Positions 8,085 to 17,286 of a DNA stretch of 64,000 bases are shown piece by piece; position 1 is the stretch's first letter; each line of letters opens with the position of its first letter. Source of the stretch: Thermodesulfovibrionales bacterium (lineage in GTDB: Bacteria; Nitrospirota; Thermodesulfovibrionia; Thermodesulfovibrionales; Dissulfurispiraceae); the NCBI GenBank assembly GCA_020062545.1, contig JAGUWD010000017.1, forward strand, positions 1 through 64,000, written 5' to 3'. The translations under genes and the position numbers were made by a program. The notes under the pieces are model-generated. The model saw only the letters and a list, made by a program, of their open reading frames with translations. It was not told where the DNA came from and searched no databases.

Positions 8085-9893
8085 ATGGCAGAAAAACGTT
8101 TTGATGAGGACAAACTGGCCGAAGGCCAGTGCAATAGTCCTGCAACATGTGCTGTTGAAAAGAAGGGCATAAGCGAAGACTGGCTGTCGTTGTGGCTTGG
8201 CCTCTTCATATTTGTTCTTTCTCTATTTGCATTCGCAAAAACGGATATACTTGGATGGGGGATATCAACAAAGGTATGGACAGATGCTTCAAAGGCAATG
8301 TCTCCTGTAGGAAAAGATTATCAGACGGTGAAGGGTGAAATTACAAAAATTGATGGTCAGAAGGTGACCATTAAAAAAGCGGATGGCAAGGAAGAGACCA
8401 TAACGGTAAAGGAGGATACATCCGGTCTTAAGGTTGGAGACAAGTATGAGAAAAAGGGAATATCAGGGTTTGCATCTATAGTGCTAACCTATCTCTTCAT
8501 GCTTATTGTAATGACTATTGGCGCTGCGGCATTGCGTGCGAATGTCAGCAAATTCGTTATAGGATTCACCATTGCCTTCTGGATAAGTTATGCATGCTGG
8601 TTTATAGGCCATTATGCATACATAGCCGCAACCAATGCAAAGAAGGCAGGCGTTCCATGGTCACTGAGGCTGACAGGTGAGTCAGGGTTTATCGTAGCAC
8701 TCTTGGCAGGCCTGTTTGTCGGCAACTTCATGCCCGGACTTTCAAAAACCCTGAAAGAAGCGGTAAGGCCAGAACTCTATATAAAAACTGCCATTGTCCT
8801 TATGGGCGCACTATTAGGCCTTAAGGCAGCCGAGTCCTTCAGTCTTGCATCAGCGGTTATGTTCAGGGGACTCTGTGCCATTGTAGAGGCATACCTCATC
8901 TACTGGGCATTGGTCTATTTTGTTGCGAGGAAATACTTCAAGTTCAGCAAGGAATGGGCAGCGCCCCTCGCATCAGGCATATCCATATGCGGTGTGTCAG
9001 CAGCAATAGCAACAGGCGGCGCAATAAGGGCAAGGCCTGTGGTGCCTATTATGGTATCCTCGCTGGTTGTTATATTCGCTGTCCTTGAGCTCATAATACT
9101 GCCCTTTTTAGCACAGAACTTCTTATGGAAAGAGCCGTTGGTGGCAGGCGCATGGATGGGTCTTGCGGTCAAGACCGACGGCGCAGCAGTTGCAAGCGGT
9201 GCAGTTACCGATGCGCTTATAAGGGCAAAGGCAATGACAATGGAGGGGGTAAACTATAAGGAAGGCTGGATAACAATGACCTCTACAACAGTAAAGCTTT
9301 TCATCGACATCTTTATCGGTGTGTGGGCATTCATCCTGGCTATAATCTGGAGCGCAGTCATAGAGCGCAAAGAGGGTGGAAAGGTTCAGGCCATTGAGAT
9401 ATGGCATAGATTCCCGAAGTTTGTGCTGGGATATGCCATCACATTCTTTATACTCCTGTTAATCTGTTTACCTGCTACCAGAGCTATAGGGCCTGTTGAC
9501 AAAGAGATCGGCACCATAAAAGAAGAAATCTCCAAGGCAGAAAAGCAGCTTCCGACAGTAACAGATCCGGCAGCACAGGCAGCCTTAACCGAAAAAATCA
9601 AGGCAGGGAAGGATAAGATAAAAAGCCTTGAGGCGCAGATCAAAGAACCAAAGGCAACTATCGCATCAGCTAAAACAGCAACAAGCGGAAGCAACTCTTT
9701 CAGGGTGATGTTCTTTGTGCTTACCTTCTTTACAATCGGAGTTGTATCCAATTTCAAGAAGCTATGGGAAGAGGGTATTGGCAAACTGGCTGCAGTTTAT
9801 GTCCTCTGTCTGTTCGGGTTCATTATATGGATTGGTTTGATTATCTCATGGATATTCTTCCATGGTGTAAAACCACCGGTAATAACAGGATAA
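8085..9893 (+). CDS. YeiH/UPF0324-family membrane carrier, second copy with two soluble inserts
   Basis: A 602-residue relative of the carrier at 4199. The core keeps the ASGISICGVSAAIATGG and GAWMGLAVKTDGAAVAS family segments. Two insertions are unusual. Residues about 62-124, between the first helices, form a small beta-rich domain (KGEITKIDGQKVTIKKADGK, similar in feel to metal-binding or OB-like repeats). Residues about 468-535, before the last helices, form a charged predicted coiled coil. The insert positions imply external or membrane-surface partners. It is preceded by its own sigma-54 promoter and followed within 19 bases by a small membrane protein. Substrate unknown; sulfite, sulfate or another anion is a family-based guess. 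Confidence 0.85.
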   Translation: MAEKRFDEDKLAEGQCNSPATCAVEKKGISEDWLSLWLGLFIFVLSLFAFAKTDILGWGISTKVWTDASKAMSPVGKDYQTVKGEITKIDGQKVTIKKADGKEETITVKEDTSGLKVGDKYEKKGISGFASIVLTYLFMLIVMTIGAAALRANVSKFVIGFTIAFWISYACWFIGHYAYIAATNAKKAGVPWSLRLTGESGFIVALLAGLFVGNFMPGLSKTLKEAVRPELYIKTAIVLMGALLGLKAAESFSLASAVMFRGLCAIVEAYLIYWALVYFVARKYFKFSKEWAAPLASGISICGVSAAIATGGAIRARPVVPIMVSSLVVIFAVLELIILPFLAQNFLWKEPLVAGAWMGLAVKTDGAAVASGAVTDALIRAKAMTMEGVNYKEGWITMTSTTVKLFIDIFIGVWAFILAIIWSAVIERKEGGKVQAIEIWHRFPKFVLGYAITFFILLLICLPATRAIGPVDKEIGTIKEEISKAEKQLPTVTDPAAQAALTEKIKAGKDKIKSLEAQIKEPKATIASAKTATSGSNSFRVMFFVLTFFTIGVVSNFKKLWEEGIGKLAAVYVLCLFGFIIWIGLIISWIFFHGVKPPVITG

Positions 9894-10275: not shown

Positions 10276-13200
10276 ATGCACGGTTTTATGGGAAGCATCG
10301 CTGTAATAGGGGCAGGAAAGGGCGGAAGCGCCCTTTTGTCAGTTCTTCTAAAAGAACCGAATATCAATGTAGTAGGCATTGCTGACATCAATCCCGATGC
10401 TCCGGGCATCAATATCGCAAAGCAGTTTAATATTCCCATCACCAATAATTTCAAAGAACTTGCAGCCAAAAAACCGGACATAATAATCAATGTAACAGGC
10501 GACAGCAGTATAACTGCCGAGGTTCTTAAGATACTGAAACGAAAATCTCCTGGCACAGAAGTAATCGATGGACAAAGCGCAAAACTCATCTGGGATTTAC
10601 TCGAAAAACGCCGCCAATCAAAAGAGGAGATAAAGGCCCTTCTTAACGAGACAAAAGACCTGTACCGCATCGGCGTTGCCCTGACATCAGCGGATAAACT
10701 GGAGGAGGTATTGGACACCCTCATGTTGGAGGCCATTCGCACCGTAAATGCTCCTGCGGGAAGCATTGCCCTGTATGATGAAAAGAGCGATACGCTTACA
10801 TTAAAGGCGGCTCACGGTTTTTCAAAGGATTTCTCCCATGTTGTTCAATGGAAAAGGCGGGATGGCGGAATGACAGACCACATTCTGAGCAAAAGAATTC
10901 CCACGATAATTCCGGATATAGAGACTTATCCATTTGTTGATAACAGAAACATCATTAAAGAAGGGATAAAGAGCATTGTGGCAGTGCCTCTTTTTGCCAA
11001 CGACCATACAATCGGCATCATGTACATAGATGATTTTAAGCCAAGAAACTGGACGCAGAGGGAGATTGAATTTATCACCCTCCTGGGAATCCAGGCCGCA
11101 TATGCCATCGAAAAATTCAGGCTTATCGAGGCAATATCAGAAACACAGAACTATCTGAAGAATGTCCTTGACAATTCTGCCGATATAATAATAACCACCG
11201 ACACAGAAGGCAGGATCGTTGAATTCAACAAAGGGGCATCAAGAATTCTGGGATATTCAAAAGAGGAAATAATAGGAACCAAAGCTGAGAAACTATGGGT
11301 GCAGCCCGAGCAAAGGCGGGACATACTCAAGATACTCGGAAAAGAGGGATATGTATCTAATTATGAAACACAGTTGGTGACAAAGGATAGAAGGAATATA
11401 GATGTCAGTCTAACCCTTTCGTATATTCTGAGCAGCAAGAAGGGGATTTTAGGAACAGTAGGCATCAGCAAGGATATAACCGAAAAGAAAAAGCTCGAAA
11501 GGGCGATTGAGGAGAGAAATTTAGAGCTTCAGGAACTGAACGAAAAACTCGAGGAAAAGGTCATTGAAAGGACAAAAGAACTCGAAAAAGCAAATAGGGA
11601 GCTCGAAAGATCAAACAGGCTGAAGAGCCAGTTCATTGCAACAATGAGCCATGAACTCAGAACCCCTCTCAACTCTATCCTTGGGTTTTCGGAATTGCTC
11701 ATGGATGAAGTGTTTGGAACACTCACGGAAAAACAGAAGAAATATGCAAGCAACATTTACAGTTCAGGAAGCCATCTGCTGCAACTCATCAACAACATCC
11801 TGGATATAGCAAAGATTGAATCAGGAAAGATGGAACTCCATTATGAAGCCTTCTCTGTACGCCAGGCCATATCAGAGGTGGAAGCAGTAATAAAACCACT
11901 ATCAGACAAGAAGAACCAGAATCTGTCCATAACGATAGGCAATAAGGTCTCTATAATCAAAGCGGACAAGGTTAAATTCAAACAGATACTCTATAACCTC
12001 CTTTCCAATGCCGTAAAGTTCACACAGGAAGGCGGAGACATTCTCATGGAGGCAGAATTGATAAGCAGCGAAAACATCTCCTACCTTACAAAGAATCCTA
12101 ATATATGTCCCGGAAATGAAAGCTGCCTGAGAATCTCTGTACTTGATACAGGAATCGGCATAAAAAAACAGGATCATGAAAAGATATTCTCTGAATTCGA
12201 GCAGGTTGACAGCAGTTTTTCAAGGAGATATGAAGGGACAGGACTTGGACTTGCCCTGACAAAAAAACTCGTGGAACTCCATGGAGGAGAGATTTCTGTT
12301 CAGAGCGAGGAGGGCAAAGGCAGCAAGTTTACGGTAATCTTTCCACTCTTTGATATCGCTGTCACGGAAAAGGCAGCAAAAGTTAAAGAACCTGAACTAA
12401 TAGAAGAGCCTGTCTACGATATGGATATATCAAGGAACAGAAGAGGAGATGCACCTCTAATCCTCGTTGTTGAGGATGACCCCTCCACTTCTGAATTGCT
12501 GACCCTCTATCTTGCACAGGGTGGGTACAGGATTGCACATGCCTATAACGGAGATACCGCTGTAGATCGTATAAAGGAATTAAAGCCATTTGCAGTACTC
12601 CTTGATGTGATGCTTCCCGGAAAAGACGGATGGGAAATACTACAGGAAATGAAATCAGACCCCGAGATGAAGGACATTCCTGTGATTATATCTTCTGTTA
12701 TAGATAACAGGGAGTTGGGCTTTACCCTCGGGGCCTCTGATTACCTCATAAAACCTGTGGACAGGATCACCCTCCTGAAAAAGCTCGAGGAGTTAAGTTT
12801 TGCCACAAAGAAGGGGAGAAGGCCCGTGAATATCCTCTGTATCGATGACCATGCCGAGGTGCTGGAACTGCTGACATCCATTCTCGAACCATCAGGCTAC
12901 AATGTAATCACGGCCAATTCAGGTAGACAGGGCATAGAAAAGGCGGTAGCATACAGGCCGGACCTCGTTATCCTTGACCTTATGATGCCCGAGGTGGATG
13001 GCTTTGAAGTGGCGCAGATACTAAAAAACAATCCTTCCACCATGGATATCCCCATACTCATTCTTACTGCAAAGGACCTGACAGTAGATGACAGGCTCCG
13101 GCTTGCAGGGAAAATAGAAAACTGCATACAGAAGAGCCATTTCACAAAGGAAGACCTGTTAATGCACATAAGAGACCTCGAGGTCACTTATCCTGCAAGG

Positions 13201-13704
13201 GCAGGACTTCTGGACGAGGTGAGCGGTCTTTTCGACCACTGCTACTTCCAGATACGCCTTGCACAGGAGGTAAGCAGAGCGGGCAGATACAAAAATACAT
13301 TTACATTATTGATGCTCGACCTCGATAATTTCACGGATTACATAAAGGCACATGGAATCCACAGGTCAAACATCGTTATCAGAAAGATAGCCGAATTTTT
13401 GAGAAAATCCCTGCGGGGTTCGGATACGGTAGTAAGATACGGAATCGATGAGTTCGGGATCATACTCTCAAGCACATTAAAGGCGTCTGCCGAGGCTGTA
13501 GCAAAGAGGTTCCTTGCGTACATTGACAGCTATCCATTTTACGGCGAGGAGGTAATGCCCCATGGGAAGATAACTGCAAGTGTCTCTGTAATAAACTATC
13601 CTCAAGATGCGTCTTCTCCTGAGGAACTCATATTCAAGGCTCATCAGTCCCTTAGAAAGGCAAAGGAGAGCGGAGGGCAGAAGGTAGTGGTATATGAGCA
13701 CTAA
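10276..13704 (+). CDS. hybrid sensor kinase: Rossmann-like, GAF, PAS, HisKA, HATPase, REC, REC, degenerate GGDEF
   Basis: A 1142-residue cytosolic signalling protein. Residues 1-110 resemble an NAD(P)-binding dehydrogenase fold (IAVIGAGKGGSALLS, then a strand ending in Asp at GIADINPDAPG, then INVTGDSS). GAF (about 125-275), PAS (about 290-400), a coiled coil and HisKA with MSHELRTPLNS follow, then an ATPase domain ending near 695. Two receivers come next (about 730-845, LLDVMLPGKDG; about 850-970, LDLMMPEVDG), then a GGDEF-like domain whose signature reads YGIDEF. The GGDEF match is imperfect, so cyclase activity is doubtful. A second ATG at 10288 is an alternative start. It overlaps the next regulator gene. 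A dinucleotide-sensing role is inferred. Confidence 0.9.
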   Translation: MHGFMGSIAVIGAGKGGSALLSVLLKEPNINVVGIADINPDAPGINIAKQFNIPITNNFKELAAKKPDIIINVTGDSSITAEVLKILKRKSPGTEVIDGQSAKLIWDLLEKRRQSKEEIKALLNETKDLYRIGVALTSADKLEEVLDTLMLEAIRTVNAPAGSIALYDEKSDTLTLKAAHGFSKDFSHVVQWKRRDGGMTDHILSKRIPTIIPDIETYPFVDNRNIIKEGIKSIVAVPLFANDHTIGIMYIDDFKPRNWTQREIEFITLLGIQAAYAIEKFRLIEAISETQNYLKNVLDNSADIIITTDTEGRIVEFNKGASRILGYSKEEIIGTKAEKLWVQPEQRRDILKILGKEGYVSNYETQLVTKDRRNIDVSLTLSYILSSKKGILGTVGISKDITEKKKLERAIEERNLELQELNEKLEEKVIERTKELEKANRELERSNRLKSQFIATMSHELRTPLNSILGFSELLMDEVFGTLTEKQKKYASNIYSSGSHLLQLINNILDIAKIESGKMELHYEAFSVRQAISEVEAVIKPLSDKKNQNLSITIGNKVSIIKADKVKFKQILYNLLSNAVKFTQEGGDILMEAELISSENISYLTKNPNICPGNESCLRISVLDTGIGIKKQDHEKIFSEFEQVDSSFSRRYEGTGLGLALTKKLVELHGGEISVQSEEGKGSKFTVIFPLFDIAVTEKAAKVKEPELIEEPVYDMDISRNRRGDAPLILVVEDDPSTSELLTLYLAQGGYRIAHAYNGDTAVDRIKELKPFAVLLDVMLPGKDGWEILQEMKSDPEMKDIPVIISSVIDNRELGFTLGASDYLIKPVDRITLLKKLEELSFATKKGRRPVNILCIDDHAEVLELLTSILEPSGYNVITANSGRQGIEKAVAYRPDLVILDLMMPEVDGFEVAQILKNNPSTMDIPILILTAKDLTVDDRLRLAGKIENCIQKSHFTKEDLLMHIRDLEVTYPARAGLLDEVSGLFDHCYFQIRLAQEVSRAGRYKNTFTLLMLDLDNFTDYIKAHGIHRSNIVIRKIAEFLRKSLRGSDTVVRYGIDEFGIILSSTLKASAEAVAKRFLAYIDSYPFYGEEVMPHGKITASVSVINYPQDASSPEELIFKAHQSLRKAKESGGQKVVVYEH

Positions 13705-14074
13705 ACAGAAGATACTCGTTGTCGAGGACAATCAGGTTAATCTGGAGTTGTTCATGGACATCCTCAATGTAGGAGGCTATGAATGCCTTCACACAACGAA
13801 GGGGGAAGAAGCCTTAGATATAGCAAAGAGGGAAAGACCCGACCTTGTGCTTCTGGATATTCAGTTGCCGGGTGTGGACGGCCTGGAGGTTGTAAAAACA
13901 TTGAAATCATCGGATGATACAAGGAATCTTAAGATAATCGCCCTCACCGCCTATGCAATGAAGGGAGACAGGGAGATGTTTCTGGAACAGGGGTTTGACG
14001 GATATATACCGAAACCCATTAAAATGAAGGAATTTCTATCAGCCATAGAAGGCTATCTCAAGGGCAGGTTATAG
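13694..14074 (+). CDS. single-domain response regulator (CheY/DivK-like)
   Basis: A stand-alone receiver of 126 residues with acidic pocket VVEDNQ, phospho-acceptor Asp in LLDIQLPGVDG, conserved Thr in ALTAYAM and Lys in IPKPIK. It has no output domain. It overlaps the end of the hybrid kinase gene by 11 bases, so it is very likely its phosphorelay partner. Confidence 0.92.
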   Translation: MSTKQKILVVEDNQVNLELFMDILNVGGYECLHTTKGEEALDIAKRERPDLVLLDIQLPGVDGLEVVKTLKSSDDTRNLKIIALTAYAMKGDREMFLEQGFDGYIPKPIKMKEFLSAIEGYLKGRL

Positions 14075-14127
14075 GTGATAGGTATTTGGTTATGGGTTTG
14101 AGAACTAAAACCTATTACCTATTATCT
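14066..14127. repeat. degenerate heptamer repeat forming a hairpin between convergent genes
   Basis: Five tandem 7-mers of the form xGGTxxT cover 14066-14100 (AGGTTAT, AGGTGAT, AGGTATT, TGGTTAT, GGGTTTG). They face an inverted pair (CCTATTA, CCTATTA) at about 14110-14123. The arms can pair over about 13 bp with one mismatch. The array supplies the last codons of both converging genes and may act as a bidirectional terminator. Confidence 0.6.
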
Positions 14128-15169
14128 TTAAAAACCCTTTCATATCGAACTCTGTTTCAATGAGCTCTTTTGCACGGGCTATTTTGCCCTTTTCCCTTAT
14201 CCGTGCCTTTCCCATTGTTGCCTCTATTCTGTCAATAGCTGTAAATGTGTCCTCTGCTACTGATATGATTGGGATGCCCTTTGACTGCGCCCTGCCGATA
14301 ACAACATCGTTTGTATAAAGTCCGCCTGTAAGGATTATGCACTTTGTTGAAGTCTCCATAGCGGCAAGCTGTATGTCGGAGCGGTGGGCACCTGTGATTA
14401 CTGCCTTGTTGGGTATCCTGCTGAAATAACTGAGGGCGCTGTCCACATCCATAGCACCTATGGAAAAGTTCTCCACAAAGTCATCGAGTCTGTCCTCACA
14501 ACAGAGCACTCTGCCGTTAAGGATTTCAACAAGCTGTCTTATGGCTATGGATTCCAAAAAACTGTCCTTTGGGAAAACGCCGAATATTGTAACTCCATTC
14601 TTCTCCAGAAACGGTCTTATCTTCTCCCTGGCATGGGCTGCTGCATTCTGCGGCACTTTATTAATAACACTTCCTATAAACCTCTCGCCAAAAAGTTTGT
14701 ACGCCCCGATGATGGTATCCATAGTGCTGTCTCCTCTCCACAACTCCACCATCATGATATAAGCATCCATCTCCTTTATAAGCTCGAAGGCATCGATATT
14801 TAGAGAAGCCCCTTCAAAGAGGTCTGCTGCACCGCCGATAATGACAATATCTTTATTTTTCTGTGATTCAACTGCCTCCATTATCCTATTTTTTACATCT
14901 CCTATCTTTCCCTCAAACAACAAATTTTGTTCCTCGTAGCTAAAGACAAAGGGGGAAACCACATTAAGGCTGTCAGACAGGGAAAGGGCATCTTTTATAA
15001 AAACGGCATCCGCATCGAATATATGCCGACCAATTTTTGCAGGGATTTTGCCGAAAGGCTTGATATAGCCAACCCTGTATCCCTGCTCGATTAATTTCAG
15101 TCCGAGACCGAGGGCAAGAAATGTCTTGCCGCTATGGCTTCTGTTTGATGCTATAAATATCGGTATCAT
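14105..15169 (-). CDS. AAA/BioD-like and DRTGG domain protein (Pta N-terminal type)
   Basis: A 354-residue protein. The N-terminal part is a dethiobiotin-synthetase-like P-loop domain (IASNRSHSGKTFLALGLG). The C-terminal part is a DRTGG-type domain of the kind found at the N-terminus of long phosphotransacetylases (around ITGAHRSDIQ and IILTGG). The catalytic Pta domain is absent. It follows the ADP-forming acyl-CoA synthetase gene in the same direction by 17 bases. Stand-alone proteins of this kind are often encoded beside such synthetases and probably regulate them; the activity is not established. Confidence 0.8.
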   Translation of the reverse strand: MIPIFIASNRSHSGKTFLALGLGLKLIEQGYRVGYIKPFGKIPAKIGRHIFDADAVFIKDALSLSDSLNVVSPFVFSYEEQNLLFEGKIGDVKNRIMEAVESQKNKDIVIIGGAADLFEGASLNIDAFELIKEMDAYIMMVELWRGDSTMDTIIGAYKLFGERFIGSVINKVPQNAAAHAREKIRPFLEKNGVTIFGVFPKDSFLESIAIRQLVEILNGRVLCCEDRLDDFVENFSIGAMDVDSALSYFSRIPNKAVITGAHRSDIQLAAMETSTKCIILTGGLYTNDVVIGRAQSKGIPIISVAEDTFTAIDRIEATMGKARIREKGKIARAKELIETEFDMKGFLKIIGNRF

Positions 15170-15186
15170 GTTTCCCTCCTCTTTAT

Positions 15187-17286
15187 CTATCCACGTTTTG
15201 GCCTTTCAAAAATAATCCGTGCGTCTATGGCAAAGGCGCCACTATTCATAACAACAAGGGGGTTTATGTCAAGCTCCCTTATCATTGGGAAGTCCATAAC
15301 AAGGGACGATATATTCAAAATCCCGTTAACTATTGCCTCTATGTCCACAGGTCTCTCTCCCCTCGTACCCTTCAGAAGTGCAGCGGTTTTTATTTCATCT
15401 ATCATAGATACCGCCTCCTTTCTGGACACCGGCGCTATCCTGAACGACACGTCCTTTAAGACCTCAACATATATGCCGCCCAGACCGAACATGATCATAT
15501 GTCCGAATGTCCTGTCATCAGTCACTCCAAGGATCACCTCTTTGCCGCCCTTGATCATTTCATAAATCATCACGCCGTTTATAAGTGCATGGGGCATCAG
15601 TCTCTTTGCATTGGATGTTATCTCCATAAATGCATCCTCTGCTGCAACATCTGAATTTATGTTGAGCTTCACTCCTCCAACATCCGTCTTATGAAGGATA
15701 TCAGGAGATGAGACCTTCATTACAACAGGAAATCCTATCTTTTCTGAAATAGCAGCTGCCTCCTTTGCAGTGCGTGCCAGAGCCCTCAGGGGAAATACGA
15801 ATCCATAATTGGAAAGTATTGCCATTGCAATGTCTTCCCCTGCCTCGTACCTTCCTGCCTTCAACAAACTGTCGATTATCCCCTTTGCTGCATCTTTATT
15901 GTACATATGCCCCTGTATTTCTTCTTCGATGCCCTGTCTCCACATATTGTAATCATAGAGTTTCTTGAATGCCCTGACCGCTGTTTCAGGATAAGAGAAG
16001 TTCGGGATTGCACTTGTCTTAAGCATTTCAATTGATTCCCTTACCCTCATTTCACCCATGAAAGACGTTATGACAGGTTTATCCGCGGTTTTTGATTTGT
16101 TAATGATTATCTCCGCTGTATTCTCCACATCTGTCATTGCCTGCGGAGTGAGTATCACGATAATACCATCCACATTGGGATCTGTAATTGCTTTGTTCAG
16201 CACAACTTCATACCGCTCTGATGTGGCATCTCCGATTATGTCCACAGGGTTATAGAGGGATGCGTTCTTTGGTAAAAGCGGCGCTATTGACTCTATGGCA
16301 TTCCTTGACATCTGCGGTAATTTAAGGCCAAGCTTTTCTGATGCATCTGCTGCAATTATTCCCGGTCCTCCAGCATTTGTAACAATTAACAGCCTGTTCC
16401 CTGAAGGCAGCTTGCCGCCCGAAAATGCAAGGGCCGTATCGAAAAGCTCTTGAATCCCATTTGCCCTGATAACGCCTGTCTGTTTAAATGCTGCATCAAA
16501 GGCAGTCTCAGAGCCTGCAAGGGCGCCTGTATGGGATGATGCTGCCCTTGCACCGGCCTCGGTGCCTCCTGACTTTAGGAGAATAACAGGTTTTACCTTT
16601 GTTGCCTTTCTGGCAACATTTAAAAACCTCCTGCCGTCAACAACATCCTCTATGTATCCTAAAATAACATCGGTATCAGGGTCATTAATAAAATATTCTA
16701 TAAAATCTATCTCATTGAGGTCTGTCTTATTGCCGAGGCTTATGAACTTTGAAAACCCCATCCTGTTTCCGATTGCCCAGTCCAATATGGCAATGCCAAG
16801 GGCCCCTGACTGCGAAAAAAATGCATTTCTACCACTCGGAAGCATACCTGCTGCAAAGGTGGCATTCATGCTGTTGGCTGTATTGATTATCCCGAGACAG
16901 TTCGGGCCCAGGATGCGGATATTGTTATCCTTACTTATTATCCTGATTTCCTGTTCCAGCCTGACACCCTCTGGCCCTGCCTCCTTGAAGCCTGCGCTCA
17001 CGATTACCGCTGCCCTGACTCCTGCAGCAGCACAATCAACAAGGGTCTCGGGTACAAATCGGGCAGGGACTGCTATAACCGCAAGGTCAATGCTTTTGCC
17101 AACTTCAGACGCCTTCTGATAAGCCTTAAGCCCCAAGATATCCGTGGCAGATGGGTTTACAGGGTACAGCCTGCCTTTATAGCTGAATCTAACAAGATTA
17201 TTTAGGACAGCTCCTCCGACCTTCTGCGGGTCTCTTGATGCACCAATGACCGCGATGGAATCAGGATTAAACAGGGGTTCAAGCAT
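15187..17286 (-). CDS. acetate/acyl-CoA ligase, ADP-forming (fused alpha-beta)
   Basis: A 699-residue enzyme that converts acyl-CoA, ADP and phosphate to the free acid, CoA and ATP. The N-terminal CoA-binding domain begins SIAVIGASRDPQKVGG. The succinyl-CoA-synthetase-like domains carry the phospho-histidine region SSHTGALAGS. The C-terminal ATP-grasp half (from about 485) has FPVVMKVSSPDILHKTDVGG. It is a single-chain alpha-beta fusion of the usual length. It probably provides substrate-level ATP from acetyl-CoA or another acyl-CoA in anaerobic metabolism. Confidence 0.92.
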   Translation of the reverse strand: MLEPLFNPDSIAVIGASRDPQKVGGAVLNNLVRFSYKGRLYPVNPSATDILGLKAYQKASEVGKSIDLAVIAVPARFVPETLVDCAAAGVRAAVIVSAGFKEAGPEGVRLEQEIRIISKDNNIRILGPNCLGIINTANSMNATFAAGMLPSGRNAFFSQSGALGIAILDWAIGNRMGFSKFISLGNKTDLNEIDFIEYFINDPDTDVILGYIEDVVDGRRFLNVARKATKVKPVILLKSGGTEAGARAASSHTGALAGSETAFDAAFKQTGVIRANGIQELFDTALAFSGGKLPSGNRLLIVTNAGGPGIIAADASEKLGLKLPQMSRNAIESIAPLLPKNASLYNPVDIIGDATSERYEVVLNKAITDPNVDGIIVILTPQAMTDVENTAEIIINKSKTADKPVITSFMGEMRVRESIEMLKTSAIPNFSYPETAVRAFKKLYDYNMWRQGIEEEIQGHMYNKDAAKGIIDSLLKAGRYEAGEDIAMAILSNYGFVFPLRALARTAKEAAAISEKIGFPVVMKVSSPDILHKTDVGGVKLNINSDVAAEDAFMEITSNAKRLMPHALINGVMIYEMIKGGKEVILGVTDDRTFGHMIMFGLGGIYVEVLKDVSFRIAPVSRKEAVSMIDEIKTAALLKGTRGERPVDIEAIVNGILNISSLVMDFPMIRELDINPLVVMNSGAFAIDARIIFERPKRG

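Follow-up and report, generated by a model that had tools for sequence, protein, structure and literature searches.

The DNA analyzed here (the window) is a stretch of 64,000 nucleotides from a Thermodesulfovibrionales bacterium (contig JAGUWD010000017.1, positions 1 to 64,000), and it encodes a hybrid histidine kinase with an unusual N-terminus (Table 1). Amino acids 1-114 look, as judged by modeling and profile searches, like a Rossmann-fold domain that is closest to the half of acylating acetaldehyde dehydrogenase binding nicotinamide adenine dinucleotide (NAD). This N-terminal domain (N-domain) is also found in front of other kinases, diguanylate cyclases and transcriptional activators, and its behavior is that of a shuffled input module, shared by many signaling outputs and not peculiar to the kinase of the window. 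It probably acts as a sensor, so far without a name, of the metabolic state of the cell. It seems about evenly balanced whether the kinase as a whole is a soluble phosphorelay hybrid kinase that responds to a dinucleotide or to coenzyme A (CoA), with a possible readout of cyclic di-GMP (c-di-GMP).

Fold of the N-terminal Domain

When amino acids 1-125 are scanned alone, four Pfam families pass their cut-offs: GFO_IDH_MocA (28.3 bits, cut-off 24), DapB_N (27.2, cut-off 25.6), CoA_binding (26.2, cut-off 22.3) and, narrowly, F420_oxidored (22.7, cut-off 21.6). In a scan of the whole protein the N-domain ends just under the cut-off (GFO_IDH_MocA 23.5 vs. 24), and it is therefore considered to be divergent. 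The AlphaFold model of the single sequence has strands at residues 6-11, 30-36, 69-72, and 95-97, alternating with helices at 15-26, 43-50, 59-64, 77-90, and 99-111. Its mean predicted local distance difference test (pLDDT) score is 76, the five models spanning 43 to 76. The Gly-rich loop GAGKGG and Asp37, also typical of a Rossmann domain, are both found in this fold.

The best match of the model in the PDB, using Foldseek, is 7z3s, an acetaldehyde dehydrogenase (E 6.6e-5), followed closely by enzymes of the Gfo/Idh/MocA type and by DapB. VIA-align gives a Z-score of 12.1 to 1nvm_D over 113 residues at 3.1 Å; other NAD enzymes lie less than one Z unit from this, and the nearest enzyme family is thus a tie. 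A profile of 22 N-domains (A1) retrieved five acetaldehyde dehydrogenases and one Rex from the PDB at E 0.001. None of its 22 members matches a dedicated family in Pfam or NCBIfam, only weak and assorted oxidoreductase families.

A first-pass annotation of the gene had likened the first 110 or so residues to an NAD(P)-binding domain and had suggested structure prediction against Rossmann folds as a check. AlphaFold, Foldseek, and VIA-align all point to a dinucleotide (Rossmann) fold, and a fold of another kind was not obtained. The motifs quoted in that annotation are present as well: GAGKGG (amino acids 12-17), ADINPDAPG (36-44), NVTGDSS (72-78), and, close to the C-terminus, YGIDEF (1055-1060). 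Pfam further bears out the fusion it described, of this domain to GAF, PAS, kinase, and two receiver domains.

Conservation at the Nucleotide-Binding Edge

Residue conservation was studied in 98 N-domains. These remained from 100 distinct sequences, consisting of best matches and of members from chosen genomes and thus not a random draw, after the truncated L076 had been dropped and L139, a true acetaldehyde dehydrogenase, had been set aside as outgroup. G12 is found in all 98, G14 in 83, G17 in 85, and an acid at position 37 in 94, while P43 is kept in 84, N/D72 in 92, T/S74 in 90, and G75 in 80. In the AlphaFold model the conserved positions are the ends of strands 1, 2, and 4, the edge at which a Rossmann fold binds nucleotides. 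A helix further on with the pattern GxSAKxxW is conserved across output types (G99 in 80, A102 in 80, and W106 in 79 of the 98). L074 and L075, window-type kinases (about 56% identical overall), are natural variants at the putative ligand site.

An acid ending strand 2 usually marks NAD rather than NADP, and the conservation suits NAD(H) as the ligand, CoA or another nucleotide being compatible with it as well. That the domain senses CoA or acyl-CoA instead of NAD(H) is possible but unlikely. CoA_binding passes on the window domain and matches six of the 22 profile members, acylating acetaldehyde dehydrogenases work with NAD as well as CoA, and a gene for an acyl-CoA synthetase lies close to the kinase gene (see Genes Surrounding the Kinase); the near-constant acid on strand 2, on the other hand, is the usual mark of NAD. 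Still less probable is another nucleotide such as NADP(H), F420, S-adenosylmethionine, or ADP. The Rossmann fold accepts many ligands, and F420_oxidored matches four of the 22 members, but the scores are below those of the NAD families, and the acid disfavors NADP. NAD(H) is kept below as the first candidate.

One Input Domain, Many Outputs

Pfam was run on 23 N-domain relatives besides the window protein (in sets of ten, three, and ten). The kinase partners it supports are HisKA_3-HATPase (L120), PAS-PAS-HisKA_3-HATPase (L067), and HisKA-HATPase (L125, L157, L159, and L160), and it confirms window-type hybrids in L068 and L137. Among the cyclases, the N-domain is followed by GAF-GGDEF in L118, L122, L135, L059, and L162, by PAS-PAS-GGDEF in L071, and by GGDEF-EAL in L163. 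A sigma-54 AAA+ module with a Fis-type helix-turn-helix lies behind it in L119, L121, and L153, GAF domains follow in L149-L151, which are cut at the end of the locus, and in L145 a receiver is placed in front of it. In Acetoanaerobium noterae (Clostridia; NZ_CP154629.1, L138, 2998-3780), Rossmann families within amino acids 1-88 are followed by a soluble MCPsignal domain (128-247) of the methyl-accepting chemotaxis protein (MCP) type. This protein comes from outside the phylum of the window; NZ_CP154629.1 is filed as a plasmid, though it is 2.6 Mb in size.

Assigned by sequence motif and reading (L101, L134, L165, and L169 by similarity), the outputs of the 98 N-domains comprise 51 hybrid kinases, 16 HisKA_3 kinases, 15 GGDEF proteins, five sigma-54 activators, four short HisKA kinases, three proteins with several GAF domains, two stand-alone copies (L073 and L147, by reading), one MCP, and one receiver protein; L086-L106 extend at their C-terminal ends past the stretch covered. 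On a tree of the N-domains, 13 changes of output class are needed, the minimum being nine and the mean after shuffling 45.2. The tree is based on few columns, leaves 46 of its 96 inner branches open, and contains long branches that meet. Outputs have likely been exchanged repeatedly among N-domains, but this is unproven since the starred branches force at most one change for any class.

Distribution among Genomes

With the N-domain sequence as query, 34 of 60 related genomes, including that of the window, have a match at E 1e-6, and 26 have none. Stretches from the other genomes contain 39 open reading frames (ORFs) with the domain, of which 34 are longer than 950 amino acids. The domain order of the window protein (Rossmann, GAF, PAS, HisKA, HATPase, two receivers, and a degenerate GGDEF, all from Pfam with the Rossmann domain called on amino acids 1-125 alone) recurs in these long ORFs, as a search proposed in the first-pass annotation was meant to reveal. 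GAF is absent from three of them (L066, L068, and L070) and PAS from six (L058, L061, L063, L064, L069, and L072). Chance resemblance or a false fusion was rejected on the grounds of this recurrence.

The N-domain profile has a match at E 1e-10 in 239 of the 395 genomes from the phylum (inferred to be Nitrospirota), representing 97 of 170 genera. Within the genome of the window itself the next matches reach only E 4.7e-4 with the sequence and E 1.4e-5 with the profile. Eight matches at E 1e-10 are found in another genome, G268, several of them being GAF-GGDEF paralogues. A scan of genome contigs with the single sequence returned two near relatives only, one of which is a Nitrospiraceae metagenome-assembled genome. 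In searches of plasmids Acetoanaerobium was a recurrent match, and one Rhodococcus protein (L139) reads as a whole acetaldehyde dehydrogenase. One plasmid search also matched a protein annotated as Gfo/Idh/MocA oxidoreductase and a place in Embleya without annotation, and another one gave no match. A phage origin was rejected, a phage collection having given no match.

The C-terminal GGDEF Domain

A working diguanylate cyclase is expected to have the GG(D/E)EF motif, a lysine, and an asparagine at the guanine site. The window domain has GIDEF and lacks both Lys 1020 and Asn 1023, and an active cyclase was rejected for it, the catalytic residues being lost. The loss is shared by the hybrids: among the window protein and its 34 long homologues the first Gly is kept in 35 of 35 and the second in four, while Lys 1020 and Asn 1023 are kept in none. 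The six canonical GGDEF domains encoded by the genome of the window and the nine Rossmann-fused ones used for comparison all retain the Lys, the Asn, and both glycines (15/15); two further own-genome matches, L114 and L115 (partial), were left out of this comparison as they lack the motif searched for. Eight hybrids compared directly have neither that Lys nor that Asn. Residue 1032, which is Asn in 32 hybrids and Asp in three, does not discriminate, Asn also being found in four of the nine Rossmann-fused domains. That the hybrids should still make c-di-GMP is highly improbable in view of the Lys, Asn, and second Gly they lack, even if Asp 1058 (35/35), the first metal Asp at 1015 (33/35), and Glu 1059 (21/35) are preserved.

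The RxxD motif (R1047 and D1050) is kept in all 35 hybrids. A degenerate A-site together with an RxxD I-site is described for PopA, a PleD paralog, in a passage of a review (PMC12564702), and the window domain combines the same two features. Another review (PMC7288161) lists degenerate GGDEF domains with GTP binding or ATPase activity. From its residues the terminal domain is likely a dead cyclase, and it is plausible that it reads c-di-GMP through RxxD. The first-pass annotation had called it a sensor or a dead cyclase. Its second suggestion agrees well with the lost Lys, Asn, and second Gly, which make a working cyclase very improbable; the first fits the intact RxxD site, which may bind c-di-GMP.

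Genes Surrounding the Kinase

The kinase gene overlaps that of a single receiver, and such a receiver is found directly downstream on the same strand in 21 of the 34 long homologues. In ten of the 34 a gene encoding a receiver fused to an HD domain (REC-HD) lies directly upstream, e.g., in L055 (4974-5978) and L063 (2994-4031). Its end falls from 19 bases before to 75 bases after the called start of the kinase gene, and the two often overlap. Neither neighbor occurs within the stretch covered in three long homologues (L054, L056, and L057). Two REC-HD proteins were scanned with Pfam and contain a receiver and HD_5. HD_5 is of the HD-GYP type, which is often a c-di-GMP phosphodiesterase, and the REC-HD neighbor may represent a second tie to c-di-GMP.

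Downstream of the kinase operon, and convergent with it, the window contains, at 14105-17286 on the reverse strand, a DRTGG/AAA_26 gene next to a gene for an ADP-forming acyl-CoA synthetase. Among the 16 closest homologues, 11 have this pair in the same convergent placement, and for the other five it was not found in the stretch covered. The pair speaks for CoA as the ligand of the N-domain, but convergent neighbors do not imply a shared function. Upstream on the forward strand (8085-9893), a protein of 602 amino acids matches Cons_hypoth698 (YeiH-like) over amino acids 202-485 only.

Table 1. Features of the hybrid kinase gene and the overlapping receiver gene in the window.
Feature	Position	Strand	Basis or remark
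Hybrid histidine kinase ORF	10276..13704	+	1142 amino acids, ATG start, open throughout
Rossmann input domain (amino acids 1-114)	10276..10617	+	Pfam, AlphaFold, VIA-align, purpose-built profile
Gly-rich loop GAGKGG (12-17)	10309..10326	+	Residue conservation in 98 N-domains
Acid D37, end of strand 2	10384..10386	+	D or E in 94/98 N-domains
GAF domain (142-279)	10699..11112	+	Pfam
PAS domain (293-405)	11152..11490	+	Pfam
HisKA (450-517), phospho-acceptor H459 by motif	11623..11826	+	Pfam; SHELRTP motif
HATPase_c (564-691)	11965..12348	+	Pfam
Receiver 1 (about 728-840)	12457..12795	+	Pfam, family-model matches
Receiver 2 (853-964)	12832..13167	+	Pfam
Degenerate GGDEF domain (979-1135)	13210..13680	+	Pfam; residue comparison
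RxxD I-site motif (RGSD, 1047-1050)	13414..13425	+	R and D in 35/35 hybrids
GIDEF (1056-1060), replacing GG(D/E)EF	13441..13455	+	Second Gly in 4/35 hybrids
Single receiver, 126 amino acids, likely partner	13694..14074	+	Pfam; neighbor survey; 11-base overlap with kinase gene

Proposed Mechanism and Significance

The HisKA domain with its His box, the HATPase_c domain, and the receivers make the window protein a hybrid histidine kinase. Its input module would be related to the Rossmann half of an NAD-dependent, acetaldehyde dehydrogenase-like enzyme without the catalytic half. A ligand, most likely NAD(H), alternatively a CoA compound, could be bound between the Gly-rich loop and the acid ending strand 2, as fold and conservation suggest. 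The conservation of the GxSAKxxW helix across outputs suggests that the state of the ligand may be passed through this helix and the linker to the GAF and PAS domains and to the core of the kinase. Autophosphorylation at H459 would, as expected for the kinase family, be followed by transfer to the receivers, and the phosphate probably also reaches the overlapping single receiver; in related families it is perhaps passed to the adjacent REC-HD protein. The pseudo-GGDEF domain would no longer make c-di-GMP but may bind it at RxxD, and in this way the kinase may integrate the metabolic state with c-di-GMP. That the N-domain reports redox or carbon state is the most economical reading.

Some observations weigh against this reading. 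Of the 23 relatives scanned, 13 have a Rossmann-type Pfam family at E 0.001, the other ten being called by the purpose-built profile alone. The 34 long homologues were retrieved by means of the N-domain and so were selected for having it; they show that the order recurs, but not how often the domain is absent. The AlphaFold model of amino acids 1-290, made with three sequences, is poor (mean pLDDT 46) and gives no guide to the geometry of the linker. All six canonical GGDEF domains from the genome of the window carry RxxD too, which makes its retention weak evidence for a special role. The loop pattern GxGxx(G/A) plus the acid is complete in 75 of the 98 N-domains and lacks some part in 23, and Asn replaces the second Gly in 11. 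L074 (5302-8721) and L075 (3538-6957) have lost both the second loop Gly and the acid on strand 2, and still keep the kinase and the fold region. This would suit an N-domain that no longer has a ligand and acts as a scaffold for dimerization or protein contact, as would the fact that, among the closest relatives, HisKA or the receivers are often better conserved than the N-domain. Such a role is nevertheless quite unlikely, as the ligand edge is the best conserved part, with G12, the acid, and N/D72 retained across unrelated outputs.

A metabolic sensor remains the preferred reading. Repressors such as Rex are known to sense the dinucleotide pool directly by means of a Rossmann domain. The parts of the present proteins are of known kinds, but in the open-license literature searched no description was found of a Rossmann input to histidine kinases or diguanylate cyclases, nor of one placed before sigma-54 activators or an MCP domain. 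We tentatively suggest, at somewhat less than even likelihood, that the N-domain defines an unnamed class of cytosolic NAD(H)- or CoA-type sensors that feeds into two-component kinases, cyclases, and sigma-54 activators as well as, beyond the phylum, a chemotaxis-type protein, one metabolite reading being wired to phosphorelay, c-di-GMP, and transcription. It stands a fair chance of meriting a family name of its own. If NAD(H) or CoA is bound, a domain of about 115 amino acids would report redox or carbon state to phosphorelays, c-di-GMP, and sigma-54 transcription across much of the phylum, and it is small enough for direct testing.

Comparison with Known Systems

The best match in both fold and profile searches is the NAD half of acylating acetaldehyde dehydrogenases of the DmpF/MhpF type (1nvm, 7z3s, and 8ih7), and nine of the 22 profile members match the corresponding model, TIGR03215, at E 0.001. 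Unlike these enzymes, the window protein has no catalytic half, GAF following directly, and the N-domain is found on signaling domains; the outgroup enzyme L139 lacks an acid at the strand-2 position. A true dehydrogenase was rejected for the window protein, which reaches only 22.6 of 282 bits with TIGR03215. Rex is also a Rossmann sensor, and one Rex chain is among the six PDB profile matches, though with a weak score (E 9.3e-4). In the kinase, however, the Rossmann fold starts at amino acids 5-8, no winged helix was found, and the Rex model gives 15.7 of 138 bits.

At the C-terminal end the order of two receivers and a GGDEF domain is that of PopA and PleD (PleD model matches), and RxxD next to a degenerate catalytic site is, according to the review passage, a feature of PopA (PMC12564702). 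While PopA and PleD share this order, in the window protein it sits behind a histidine kinase core, and its c-di-GMP binding is predicted. The HisKA-HATPase-receiver core is common to the window protein and the models of the hybrid kinases HrmK, TorS, BarA, and ArcB, but the window protein scores far under their equivalog cut-offs (at best 351 of 725 bits), has a different input, and ends in a GGDEF domain.

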